A DNA stretch of 29,330 nucleotides from a virus. This document shows positions 3 through 13,551 of this stretch, piece after piece. Positions within the stretch are counted from its first letter, which is position 1, and each line of letters begins with the position of its first letter. The notes under the pieces were generated by a model. It made no database searches and was not told the origin of the DNA. It saw only the letters and a program-made list of their open reading frames with translations. Location: positions 1-29,330 of the IMG/VR virus record IMGVR_UViG_3300022752_000289. One strand, given 5' to 3'. Made by a program: the position numbers and the translations under genes.

Positions 3-623
3 ATTTGTGCCTTGCAACAAGGCGGCATCCTTGCCGGTAAGTTCGGTGCGAAGATTCCTCGCGTAATCAAGGCACAAATGGAGCCGGAGATCAGGTGGGA
101 GGATGTGTTGGACGACTTCTGGTCTGACACGATGCGTGGCATGGACGAGTTCACGTTCAGACGGTTCAACGCACGACGACTGGCTGATGACTTGTTCATG
201 CCAACAACGTACAGCGATACGCTAGGTGAGATCGTCATTGCGATTGATACGTCAGGCAGTATCGATGAGAAGCAGATCAGCAGAGTTGTATCGCGACTTG
301 TCAATCTGTGTGAGTTGTATCCCCCAAACTCTATCCGTGTTCTCTGGTGGGATACGCAGGTGCATGGCGAGCAACGCTTTGAAGGTAACTACAACGAGAT
401 GCCGAAGATGCTGAAGCCGATGGGCGGCGGTGGTACTCGCGTGTCTTGTGTTAGTCAGTACATGGAGAAGAACAGTATCAATGCAGATGCGGTCATCGTG
501 TTCACCGATGGTCATGTCGAGCATGATGTTAAGTGGGACATTGCTTGTCCTACGTTGTGGCTTGTGACTCATAACAATGGGTTCACACCGCCGCATGGTC
601 GCAAGGTGATGGTGCAAGAGTAA
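3..623 (+). CDS. VWA-like domain protein, C-terminal part (5' end outside window)
   Basis: The reading frame is open to the left edge, so this is the C-terminal ~206 residues of a longer protein. The first in-frame start-like codon (TTG at 12) is probably internal. A von Willebrand A fold is supported by the MIDAS motif D-T-S-G-S (Asp codon at 246-248), a later Thr in the GGGGTRVS stretch, and a second acidic loop, VFTDGHVE. The arrangement matches the VWA-like half of the putative metallopeptidase family COG3864/DUF2201, which in bacteria usually follows a MoxR-type AAA+ ATPase gene. Such pairs are thought to act in metal insertion or protein remodelling. The metallopeptidase-like N-terminal half and any ATPase gene would lie upstream of the window, so neither can be confirmed. 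The stop TAA is followed 7 nt later by a 15-bp palindrome and then the next gene. Confidence 0.75.
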   Translation: MCALQQGGILAGKFGAKIPRVIKAQMEPEIRWEDVLDDFWSDTMRGMDEFTFRRFNARRLADDLFMPTTYSDTLGEIVIAIDTSGSIDEKQISRVVSRLVNLCELYPPNSIRVLWWDTQVHGEQRFEGNYNEMPKMLKPMGGGGTRVSCVSQYMEKNSINADAVIVFTDGHVEHDVKWDIACPTLWLVTHNNGFTPPHGRKVMVQE

Positions 624-1679: not shown

Positions 1680-2093
1680 ATGTCTAGGAGAAATTTCTTT
1701 CATAACATGATTATGGCAGACAACTACAGGTCGCAGTTCGAGCCGATGAATCTTGTGGGGAACCGTATCAAGTTCATTGGTTGGTACGATGCCGATGACA
1801 TTGAGTACACAAACAAATTCTTCAACGTGTACTTGGGTAATCGTTTGATTAGGCGATTTGATGATGCGACCTTGCCCGACTTGATAAAGATCAGGATAGC
1901 CATGATCGGTGCATTACAAGTTCACGATACGCCACCCGATGATTCTTTAGAGGAATCGTATTGGGGTATACAAAGTGCTAAGAATCTAATGGACTTGGGG
2001 TATGGCATAGATAACTGTAGTTACTACGCATTAATAGTTACAGAGGATGAGTTCAAAACTCTACGTGGTTCAACAATCGAAGAGCAGTCCTGA
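1680..2093 (+). CDS. Hypothetical phage protein, 137 aa
   Basis: The ATG at 1680 follows the previous stop by 2 nt, so translational coupling is likely; no strong separate ribosome binding site is seen. The product is a small, acidic soluble protein with no motif I recognise. Its stop codon TGA (2091-2093) lies inside the third copy of the 15-bp palindrome, so the palindrome arm encodes the end of the protein. The function is unknown. Position suggests it belongs with the VWA-domain gene and the 337-aa gene before it. Confidence 0.75.
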   Translation: MSRRNFFHNMIMADNYRSQFEPMNLVGNRIKFIGWYDADDIEYTNKFFNVYLGNRLIRRFDDATLPDLIKIRIAMIGALQVHDTPPDDSLEESYWGIQSAKNLMDLGYGIDNCSYYALIVTEDEFKTLRGSTIEEQS

Positions 2094-11350: not shown

Positions 11351-11605
11351 ATGCCGTATACGAAATCACAGCGTCCGTATAAACACGAATACGCGATGCA
11401 AAAGAAGCGTGGCGAACATGATGACCGCATGGAGCGGCAGCGGGCGCGTCGGTCTTACGATAAAAAAGGTATTAGCCGAAAGGGTAAGGACGTTGCACAC
11501 GTTGTGGCACTCTCTAAAGGCGGTAGCAACAAGACGGGCACTCGGCTAGAATCGCCATCCAAGAATCGTTCGTTCCGTAGAAAACCAAGTGGTGCAATGA
11601 AATAA
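11351..11605 (+). CDS. Small basic HNH-like protein, 84 aa
   Basis: The ATG at 11351 follows the nuclease stop directly. The product is strongly basic. The C-terminal half, GKDVAHVVALSKGGSNKTGTR then NRSFRRKP, matches the layout of short HNH endonuclease-like phage proteins, in which a D-x-H and a later Asn form the metal site. Here the residue before the His is Ala (V-A-H) rather than Asp, and the canonical CxxC knuckles are missing. Catalytic activity is therefore doubtful and DNA binding is more likely. It is followed by the only sizeable gap in the early region. Confidence 0.65.
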   Translation: MPYTKSQRPYKHEYAMQKKRGEHDDRMERQRARRSYDKKGISRKGKDVAHVVALSKGGSNKTGTRLESPSKNRSFRRKPSGAMK

Positions 11606-11781
11606 ATTCACAAGGCGCGAGTGTGAATGGGGAGTCCTCCACTACTTTCTCCCCTCGGTCTGACATATACCGAAACCGCGTCAGTTAACGGCAAGTCCAC
11701 ATCCTACGTGTTACACCTGCGTATGGACTCCTACTTGAGCGTTAACCGGCTGGCCCACGAGACGGGCTTTTAGGAGTTACC
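11606..11781 (+). ncRNA. Non-coding gap with candidate structured RNA
   Basis: This 176-nt stretch has no supported ORF. Complementary arms seen by eye are: GGGGAG 11629-11634 with CTCCCC 11649-11654; CTGAC 11660-11664 with GTCAG 11680-11684, competing with TCGGT 11655-11659 and ACCGA 11669-11673. A long imperfect stem then pairs GTTAACG 11684-11690 with CGTTAAC 11740-11746, CAA 11692-11694 with TTG 11735-11737, GTCCA 11695-11699 with TGGAC 11724-11728, and TACG 11705-11708 with CGTA 11720-11723. A terminator-like hairpin closes the region. It could be a small RNA or a leader controlling the membrane-protein gene at 11782. It is not a tRNA: no T-loop or acceptor pairing is seen. No known riboswitch is recognised. 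Confidence 0.45.
11753..11771 (+). terminator. Weak terminator-like hairpin
   Basis: GCCC (11753-11756) pairs with GGGC (11764-11767) around a 7-nt loop, followed by TTTT. The stem is short (4 bp plus a possible G-T pair), so termination may be partial. It sits just before the AGGAG ribosome binding site of the 11782 gene and after the candidate structured RNA. Confidence 0.4.
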
Positions 11782-11952
11782 ATGACAGTCAATGAAGTTT
11801 TTTATTGGTGCGTAAATTTTTTGAAGTTCTGGGCGGCTCGCCTAGACATGACGTACGAAGAGATTAACGTGTATCTGTTCGTAATTATTTTGCCTGCGAT
11901 ACTCATCGCTCAATTTTTCTTAATCGCAGCGTTGCTGCTACGTAATAAGTAA
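11782..11952 (+). CDS. Small membrane protein, 56 aa
   Basis: The ATG at 11782 has a clear AGGAG (11772-11776) at good spacing. The 56-aa product has an aromatic N-terminus (FYWCVNFLKFW), a short polar stretch with TYEEINVY, then one strong transmembrane segment (FVIILPAILIAQFFLIAALLL) ending in RNK. The TYEEINV-x2-FVI-x2-P pattern resembles small membrane proteins I recall from phages and their hosts; this cannot be checked here. It lies between the structured gap and the SNF2 helicase (12 nt downstream). Confidence 0.68.
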   Translation: MTVNEVFYWCVNFLKFWAARLDMTYEEINVYLFVIILPAILIAQFFLIAALLLRNK

Positions 11953-11964
11953 GTTTGGTGATTC

Positions 11965-13551
11965 ATGCAGTTAATAGAAAACACAGCAGTTAAGTTCAGT
12001 ATTCCTGATAAATTGGCTGATCAGATACATCAGCAAGTCGAGAAGTGTGAGATTGTTGGCAACGGGTACGAGTCAAAAGAAGTCCTGCTTTATTGGGGGC
12101 ACGATGAAATACGTCGAGCCGTTTCAGTTATCGACGAGGCGCAACCCAATACCATACTACCTAAACTGCCGTCGCCTATGCTCCGCGACTACAAGTGGCC
12201 GGGACTGATCACACCGTTTGAGCATCAGAAAGACACGGCGTCTTTCTTATCGCTACGGCAACGTGCGTTCTGCTTCAACGAGGCAGGCACGGGCAAGACC
12301 TCTGCCGCGATATGGGCGGCTGATTACTTGATGAACATGGGTCTCATCAAGCGTGTGCTTGTTATCTGCCCGTTGTCGATTATGTATTCCGCTTGGCAGG
12401 CAGATGTATTCAAGACGGCGATGCACCGCACGTGCGGTGTCGCACACGGGTCAGCAGGCAAGCGTAAGAAAATTATAGAAGAAGGTTACGACTTCACCAT
12501 TATCAACTACGACGGTACGCATGTTGTCTTTCAAGATTTGCTTGCCGCCAAGTTTGACCTGATCATCATTGACGAGGCTAACGCCTACAAGACGGTCAGC
12601 ACTAAACGGTGGAAGACCCTTGCCAAGTTAATTCAACCGACCACATGGTTGTGGATGATGACAGGCACCCCTGCATCACAGTCCCCCATCGATGCGTACG
12701 GTCTGGCTAAATTGGTGTCCCCACAACGTGTACCAAAGTTTTCAACTGCTTGGCGCGACAAGGTTATGTATCAACTCACGCGCTTCAAGTGGCTTCCTAA
12801 ATACACTTATAAGGAAGATGTCTTCTACGCACTACAGCCTGCGGTCAGGTATTCAAAAAAGGACTGCCTTGATTTGCCCCCGCTTGTTTATCAAACACGT
12901 GAAGTACCACTTACGCCACAAGTGCTTAAATACTACAAAGCATTGAAAGCACAACTTTTGATTGAAGCGGCAGGCGAACAAATATCCGCCGTCAATGCAG
13001 CCGCATCGTTACAGAAACTATTACAGATCAGCGGCGGTGCGGTGTATACCGACAAGCATCAGGTTGTTGAATTTGACATTGCTCCGCGACTCAACGCGCT
13101 TAAAGAAGTGCTTGATGAAACGACAAATAAGGTTGTAGTATTTGTCCCGTACCTTCACACTATTGATGTGATCGTGAATTTCTTGAAGAAAGAATCAGTT
13201 ACGAATTCAGTTATCAAAGGTGATGTTAGTGCAAAAGATCGTTCAGTAATCATCGATCAGTTTCAAAAATTAGATGACCCGCGAGTGCTTGTTATTCAAC
13301 CGCAATCTGCCGCGCATGGCATCACGCTAACTGCCGCTGACACGATTGTGTTTTGGTCTCCGGTCATGAGTGTTGAAACGTATTTGCAGTGCATTGGACG
13401 TATTGAGCGAGTTGGGCAGAAGAACGCGATGACAGTCGTGCATCTGCAAGGCTCGGAAGTAGAAAGAAAGATGTACGCCATGCTTCAGGGCAAGGTGGAC
13501 AGTCATCAGAAGATAGTCGATCTGTACAAACAAGAGTTGGAAAATGAGTGA
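11965..13551 (+). CDS. SNF2-family DNA helicase/translocase
   Basis: The protein has 528 aa and the two RecA-like lobes of superfamily 2. Motif I is N105-E-A-G-T-G-K111-T, motif II is IIIDEAN (D203-E204, ending in Asn rather than His/Asp), and motif III is MTGTPASQSP (233-). In the second lobe, QPQSAAHGITLTAAD is motif V and Q-C-I-G-R479-I-E-R482 is motif VI with the arginine fingers. The following VGQK is typical of SNF2. Phage SNF2 proteins are thought to remodel DNA-protein complexes or drive fork remodelling in replication and recombination. The start ATG at 11965 has only a weak ribosome binding site. It overlaps the next gene by 8 nt. Confidence 0.92.
   Translation: MQLIENTAVKFSIPDKLADQIHQQVEKCEIVGNGYESKEVLLYWGHDEIRRAVSVIDEAQPNTILPKLPSPMLRDYKWPGLITPFEHQKDTASFLSLRQRAFCFNEAGTGKTSAAIWAADYLMNMGLIKRVLVICPLSIMYSAWQADVFKTAMHRTCGVAHGSAGKRKKIIEEGYDFTIINYDGTHVVFQDLLAAKFDLIIIDEANAYKTVSTKRWKTLAKLIQPTTWLWMMTGTPASQSPIDAYGLAKLVSPQRVPKFSTAWRDKVMYQLTRFKWLPKYTYKEDVFYALQPAVRYSKKDCLDLPPLVYQTREVPLTPQVLKYYKALKAQLLIEAAGEQISAVNAAASLQKLLQISGGAVYTDKHQVVEFDIAPRLNALKEVLDETTNKVVVFVPYLHTIDVIVNFLKKESVTNSVIKGDVSAKDRSVIIDQFQKLDDPRVLVIQPQSAAHGITLTAADTIVFWSPVMSVETYLQCIGRIERVGQKNAMTVVHLQGSEVERKMYAMLQGKVDSHQKIVDLYKQELENE

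Follow-up and report, generated by a model that had tools for sequence, protein, structure and literature searches.

The window analysed here is a virus record of 29,330 bases, in which the stop codon of an 84-aa ORF (11605) is separated from the ATG of a 56-aa ORF (11782) by a gap of 176 bases, and the question this locus raises is what the gap encodes and whether its product serves the next gene or works by itself. The initial annotation, made from the letters alone, had regarded the gap as a non-coding element with at least three hairpins, either a phage small RNA or a switching leader for the 56-aa protein and the SNF2 gene behind it. The absence of a supported ORF was upheld: the single forward ORF within the gap (11627-11773, 48 aa) was rejected as coding, since a closed ORF of at least 40 aa was present in only 13 of the gaps of 71 relatives. 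A tRNA search of the window found none, and Rfam scans of the window gave no match, in agreement with the earlier remark that no known riboswitch is recognised.

The energy excess over shuffled sequence that had been proposed as a check was not observed for the whole gap, with a minimum free energy (MFE) of -52.0 kcal/mol in comparison to -49.8 +/- 3.9 kcal/mol for the shuffles (z -0.56). The whole-gap MFE is a poor test, because a nested MFE fold cannot include a pseudoknot, and the comparison with relatives was decisive; despite the lack of an MFE excess, the gap thus encodes a genuine, strongly conserved pseudoknotted structured RNA. Five hairpins (P1 to P5) all fold locally and are listed together with the neighbouring genes in Table 1. 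The long stem P4 lies exactly where it had been placed, has 21 pairs in its local fold (-18.8 kcal/mol, z -2.7) and carries a CU-rich stretch, GGACUCCUACUUG, on its 3' side. P2 is found in many relatives, is variable and is missing from the short ones, and P3 also varies, with a loop of the UUCAU/ACAU type recurring. The short GC hairpin with TTTT ahead of a ribosome binding site was likewise confirmed as P5, which looks terminator-like in the window; in most relatives it is a hairpin without the U-run, and it is absent in L057 and L060, so that P5 as a general terminator was rejected.

Table 1. Predicted elements of the structured RNA and its neighbouring genes in the window.
Feature	Position	Strand	Description
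84-aa basic ORF	11351..11605	+	phrog_4590; usual, not obligatory upstream neighbour of the RNA
P1 hairpin	11606..11628	+	stem 11606-11612 with 11622-11628 (AUUCACA/UGUGAAU), loop A-GGCGCG-AG; local fold -4.2 kcal/mol
Pseudoknot helix, 5' strand GGCGCG	11614..11619	+	pairs with 11677-11682
P2 hairpin	11629..11654	+	11629-11634 with 11649-11654 (GGGGAG/CUCCCC), C/U-rich loop; -10.3 kcal/mol, z -1.7
P3 hairpin	11655..11673	+	11655-11659 with 11669-11673, ACAU in loop; -4.2 kcal/mol, z -1.6
Pseudoknot helix, 3' strand CGCGUC	11677..11682	+	invariant AAC before, CAG after
P4 long stem	11684..11746	+	11684-11690 with 11740-11746, 11692-11696 with 11733-11737, variable upper stem
P5 hairpin	11752..11768	+	GGCCC ACGAGAC GGGCU, then UUUU (11768-11771), then Shine-Dalgarno (SD) AGGAG
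56-aa hydrophobic ORF	11782..11952	+	inserted between the RNA and SNF2
SNF2-type helicase gene	11965..13551	+	usual gene downstream of the RNA

To obtain relatives, IMG/VR was searched with the SNF2 protein and the 84-aa protein, which gave about 160 loci, and a gap of similar size was conserved between the two genes in most of them (71 distinct gaps of 137 to 259 nt, median 172 nt). A covariance model, R1, matched 63 times in the first 81 sources and 47 times in the next 57, once per source, and a strong match to the RNA model is normally single per genome. Further contigs came from a pattern scan based on the pseudoknot and were confirmed by R1, and in all, over 100 IMG/VR contigs have the same element, for the most part with the 84-aa ORF on one side and the SNF2 gene on the other. 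A second, weak match (22 bits) was observed at L178 3345-3417 (-), downstream of the first copy and before a terminase gene.

The covariation proposed earlier as a check turned out to be strong. In alignment A1, in which 54 relative gaps were aligned with MAFFT from sequence only, standard pairs were found in 94.6% of 1186 pair cells in comparison to 73.8% with the 3' letters shuffled and 27% to 42% with the partners slid by one to three columns, and 19 of the 22 pairs showed double-sided changes. RNAalifold, run on A1 itself, proposed the long-range helix, P4 and P5, with both-side changes in 19 of 24 pairs. The pseudoknot helix was paired in 100% of cells (54 of 54 sequences, four of six pairs changed on both sides) and in 99.9% over 96 divergent sequences, while all 12 consensus pairs of P4 had changes on both sides among the 54 relatives. 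The broader alignments A2 and A4, whose fitting to the model biases them in its favour, agree with A1. For P1, an alignment-free arm-swap test over the 54 relatives gave a mean of -8.93 kcal/mol for the sequences' own arms in comparison to -5.72 kcal/mol (sd 0.31) for swapped arms.

These comparisons show the core to be an H-type pseudoknot in which part of the P1 loop pairs with a strand beyond P3, with P2 and P3 lying within the long loop, and P4 and P5 follow this core; all of these elements are supported by covariation. The P1 loop consensus A-GGCRYG-AG pairs with CRYGYC (AAC before, CAG after), and compensatory examples include GGCAUG/CAUGCC, GACGCA/UGCGUC, GGCAAG/CUUGCC, GGUAUG/CAUAUC and GGCGAGG/CUUCGUC. 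The AG/AGUG/AAC/CAG positions flanking the pseudoknot are invariant and the loops drift. Both P1 and the pseudoknot had been missed in the initial annotation, which had instead described a helix of 11660-11664 with 11680-11684; its complementarity is real, but the helix is found in only 7 of 54 relatives (9.4 expected), and as a functional alternative pairing it was dropped, being in conflict with the conserved pseudoknot and itself not conserved. One variant (L091 5987-6113) is without the P1 hairpin, and there the pseudoknot strands form an ordinary helix, GAUACGG/CCGUGUC.

The gene neighbourhoods were then compared, and the results showed that the same RNA unit occurs beside unrelated genes in phages, prophages, ICE-like regions and Polynucleobacter chromosomes. 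The RNA is located between a DNA polymerase and a RecB-like nuclease in L101, behind a polymerase plus two small ORFs in L066, after SNF2 in L209, L218, L264, L185 and L220, upstream of terminase genes of other phages in L178, L196 and L214, between a DUF2815-like gene and a different polymerase in L233 and L252, and upstream of a polymerase in L205 (also VRR-NUC) and L215. The 84-aa ORF is not beside the RNA in L040, nor in the terminase, ICE and chromosomal contexts, and of the relatives checked, L043 alone shares the 56-aa ORF with the window, while L271 has an equivalent larger spacing. The 84-aa protein is small, basic, conserved in most of these phages and HNH-like by eye (DVAHVVALSKGGSN); it matched no Pfam family and only phrog_4590, whose function is unknown. 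When the gap and several relatives were compared by BLASTN with cultured phages and plasmids, nothing useful was returned, and the RNA was absent from the four cultured phages that were checked as the nearest by their SNF2, therefore no cultured phage model is at hand.

These contexts bear directly on whether the RNA acts in cis on the early operon, as a leader, attenuator or riboswitch whose pseudoknot would sense something and govern either termination at P5 or exposure of the SD behind it that serves the 56-aa ORF and SNF2. Such a leader would suit the position just upstream of SNF2 in most relatives, the P5 hairpin plus UUUU that abuts the SD at 11773 in the window, and the complementarity between ACUCCUA of P4 and the UAGGAGU SD of the 56-aa gene (-12.2 kcal/mol). 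However, no fixed sense association with one class of downstream gene was found, since the downstream gene varies between relatives and is mostly antisense in Polynucleobacter; P5 is usually without a U-run and can be missing; the alternative helix proposed as the switch is not conserved; and the best seed-RBS duplex in the window (-13.1 kcal/mol) was matched by 72 of 300 shuffled seeds and thus points to no specific target there. In addition, four relatives (L062, L070, L075, L087) have dropped the RNA and kept the gene and promoter. We regard a cis-acting leader as unlikely, and a switching leader for the 56-aa protein and SNF2 does not hold as the general function, with the 56-aa ORF confined to two loci and SNF2 not downstream in several relatives. 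In those four relatives and in L078, all of which lost the RNA, the gap between the 84-aa ORF and SNF2 keeps a sigma-70-like promoter, which suggests a further role for the gap as an internal promoter region.

The bacterial copies provide a second set of contexts. A scan of bacterial genomes gave a match in Polynucleobacter sp. 73C-SIWE, on contig NZ_JACVOK010000002, and in two MAG contigs, and a broader model, R2, found the RNA in 15 of 151 genomes of the Polynucleobacter group (G030); because the searches used strict filters, these counts are lower bounds. In Polynucleobacter the RNA stands mostly behind one of two unrelated operons, encoding either two small proteins or a MerR regulator and a VWA protein, it ends in a strong rho-independent terminator, and most of the fetched loci have an antisense gene next; no obvious phage genes were seen at these loci. 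The RNA follows the gene for the 206-aa protein of the first operon in 9 of the 14 Polynucleobacter genomes carrying this protein, an association without strict dependence, and a fixed protein partner was accordingly rejected. In L334 to L349, which are Polynucleobacter chromosomes, the RNA lies in a variable region with WYL-type regulators nearby, possibly a genomic island. Matches to R2 extend to other Burkholderiales and Pseudomonadota, where most of them lie in prophage or ICE-like regions. Three single contigs may be recorded here: L301 (4,373 bases) was assigned to Actinomycetota but is probably misbinned, the RNA being accompanied there by UmuD-like and further genes of proteobacterial appearance; L333 has an sRNA-Xcc1 match (1897-1981 (+), 64.8 bits) near an R2 hit; and L310 has a group I intron (41-262 (+), 52 bits) on a contig with the RNA.

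Transcription antitermination in cis, by an HK022 put-like element early in the operon, would explain a structured RNA lying close behind a promoter in the early replication operon of several relatives. It is very improbable in our estimate, as the Polynucleobacter RNA lies at the 3' end of its unit, followed by the terminator and mostly antisense genes, and phage copies are found also in mid-operon and before terminase genes.

How the RNA is released appears to differ between lineages, and an own promoter or terminator, or hammerheads, can be recognised clearly in some relatives, though not in the window. A consensus sigma-70 promoter was found just upstream of the RNA in L176, L057, L205, L081, L056 and L170. 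Over all loci, promoter scores were not above shuffled (43 of 110), and a dedicated promoter before every RNA copy was rejected on these scores. In two loci a type II hammerhead lies directly 3' of the RNA (L402 1361-1437 (-) and L405 653-730 (-), with Rfam scores of 53 and 55 bits against a cut-off of 37). In L385 to L387 a complete hammerhead core (CUGANGA, GAAA, closed stems II and III), recognised by pattern and below the Rfam cut-offs, is located about 15 to 63 nt 5' of the RNA with its cleavage site 15 to 22 nt before it. These hammerheads, all flanking RNAs of the Proteo-phage-1 type, suggest that ribozymes may define the ends of the RNA or excise it in some lineages. In the window, no convincing promoter lies upstream of the RNA, and averaged over loci the promoter scores do not exceed those of shuffled sequence; release is thus inferred here, and the RNA would probably be freed by processing of the early operon transcript.

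As for what the RNA might contact, pyrimidines were found to make up 69% of the P4 loop; of 109 sequences, 42 contain CUUUC where 7 would be expected and 24 contain CCUCC where 6 would be, although shared ancestry could account for part of this enrichment. The CU-rich loop resembles the 3' end of beta-proteobacterial 16S rRNA, i.e. the anti-Shine-Dalgarno. Over 82 loci, P4 loops paired better with ribosome-binding-site windows than shuffled loops did (p 5e-5), and no better pairing was observed with random windows (p 0.68); in comparison to reversed loops, the difference at ribosome-binding-site windows was not significant (p 0.15), and the P4 loop of the window alone paired no better than shuffles. 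Since the loops beat shuffled but not reversed loops, and not in the window alone, pairing of the CU-rich P4 loop with ribosome-binding sites is considered plausible only.

The RNA could instead work by binding a protein, the pseudoknot and P4/P5 then serving as scaffold or decoy and base-pairing being secondary; the partner, from phage or host, might for example be RNA polymerase, a defence protein, or a protein of the ribosomal or Hfq/CsrA type. The fold and the invariant AG/AGUG/AAC/CAG positions are very strongly conserved while the loops drift, and the RNA occurs in mobile elements and islands, as might be expected of such a scaffold. On the other hand, the RNA has no constant protein-gene companion; the 84-aa ORF, for one, is not found with it in L040 or in the terminase, ICE and chromosomal contexts. 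We consider a mainly protein-binding role, with any of these example partners, rather unlikely.

In general, the analysis favours an RNA working by itself, because its neighbours change, downstream genes are antisense, and ribozymes or terminators flank it. We therefore think it probable that the segment from about 11606 to 11772 encodes a structured small RNA, about 170 nt long, which stands on its own, acts in trans and is not a leader specific to the next gene, even though in most phages it lies leader-like on the same strand as, and just upstream of, the early genes. The phage small RNA of the initial annotation is thus supported: the element recurs as a unit in many contexts, sometimes with its own promoter, has Polynucleobacter copies, and is abutted by hammerheads in several relatives. 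Such an RNA would be released by its own promoter and terminator where present and by flanking hammerhead ribozymes in some relatives, and would act in trans; less firmly, the pseudoknot may be a stable scaffold presenting the CU-rich P4 loop, whose consensus, like CUCCUUUC, is a Shine-Dalgarno complement and might pair with the ribosome-binding sites of target mRNAs. If this pairing is true, the RNA would be a widely shared phage tool controlling translation. The fullest version is only tentatively put forward, namely that the window RNA belongs to a large, essentially uncatalogued, phage-borne, trans-acting family with a pseudoknot scaffold and a 16S-tail-like CU-rich loop that controls translation initiation, is cut by hammerheads in some lineages, and was taken up by freshwater Polynucleobacter as small RNA genes of the chromosome.

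With regard to known systems, the window RNA is not described in the searched passages of the 104-motif paper (PMC2864571) or the 26-genome paper (PMC8632094). STAXI (RF01728; Weinberg et al. 2010, PMC2864571) is a pseudoknot RNA found on mobile elements, close to SSB and antirestriction genes, and similarly some relatives of the window RNA stand behind ArdC-like genes; STAXI, however, is described there as a tandem-repeated pseudoknot, in contrast to the single pseudoknot plus P4/P5 of the window RNA, and it gave no match in any Rfam scan. Other structured RNAs of Polynucleobacter are Polynucleobacter-1 (RF01718; PMC2864571) and icd-II, carA and HRC-28-1 (PMC8632094). HRC-28-1, from the same genus, is also a terminator-ended element of 3'-UTR type in PMC8632094, although icd-II, carA and HRC-28-1 sit there in other contexts (icd; carA; PRK05408/rpiA). 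RF01718 had no Rfam match to RNAs of the window family.

Proteo-phage-1 (RF03044), which Rfam types as an sRNA, is reportedly described in a paper, and its name was not met in the literature searched. The window matched no Rfam family at gathering, and RF03044 not even at E up to 10; in Rfam scans of the window, its relatives and host loci, our own RNAs were never above any cut-off, the best for RF03044 among the relatives found with R2 being L378 (23.8 bits, E 4) against a gathering score of 42 bits. The core of the R2-found loci in other bacteria, AAGCCGG-AGUG-...-AAAAAC-CCGGCAG, nevertheless resembles RF03044, and Proteo-phage-1, with AGCCGG..AGUG .. AAAAACaCCGGCAG, and the window RNA, with AAGGCGCGAGUG .. 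AAACCGCGUCAG, share what reads as the same pseudoknot core. A third covariance model, R3, was built from the window and its relatives with the loci found by RF03044 left out. With filters off, R3 found the RF03044 loci L402 (E 3.7e-7; 43.2 bits in RF03044, above that family's cut-off) and L405 (E 5.5e-9), the E-values of our models being rough, with P4 and P5 aligned; R3 missed L403, which is itself just over the RF03044 cut-off, and R2 alone found neither L402 nor L405. The pseudoknot-type core with its AG/AGUG/AAC/CAG flanks covaries in the window and its relatives, and the same letters are present in L402 and L405 aligned to R3. The Rfam model of RF03044 ends right after the pseudoknot and leaves the conserved P4 stem and P5 hairpin unmodelled, as seen against L402 1445-1595 (-).

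Because the independent R3 finds L402 and L405 with P4 and P5 aligned, the window RNA is, as judged from these alignments, a divergent relative of Proteo-phage-1 lying outside the limits of the curated family. It differs from Proteo-phage-1 in having no room for the 5' hairpin of the model, as its core begins one base past the stop codon of the 84-aa ORF and no extra 5' hairpin is present, and in having the extra P2 and P3. L402 and L405, too, carry a P4, with a CUCC loop, and a P5, which there reads GGCC-ACGUAAU-GGCC. Proteo-phage-1, a catalogued phage small RNA without assigned function, is now joined to a wider superfamily, its missing 3' half (P4 and P5) is defined, well over a hundred natural variants are supplied for covariation, and the chromosomal copies in Polynucleobacter offer a place where function can be tested.
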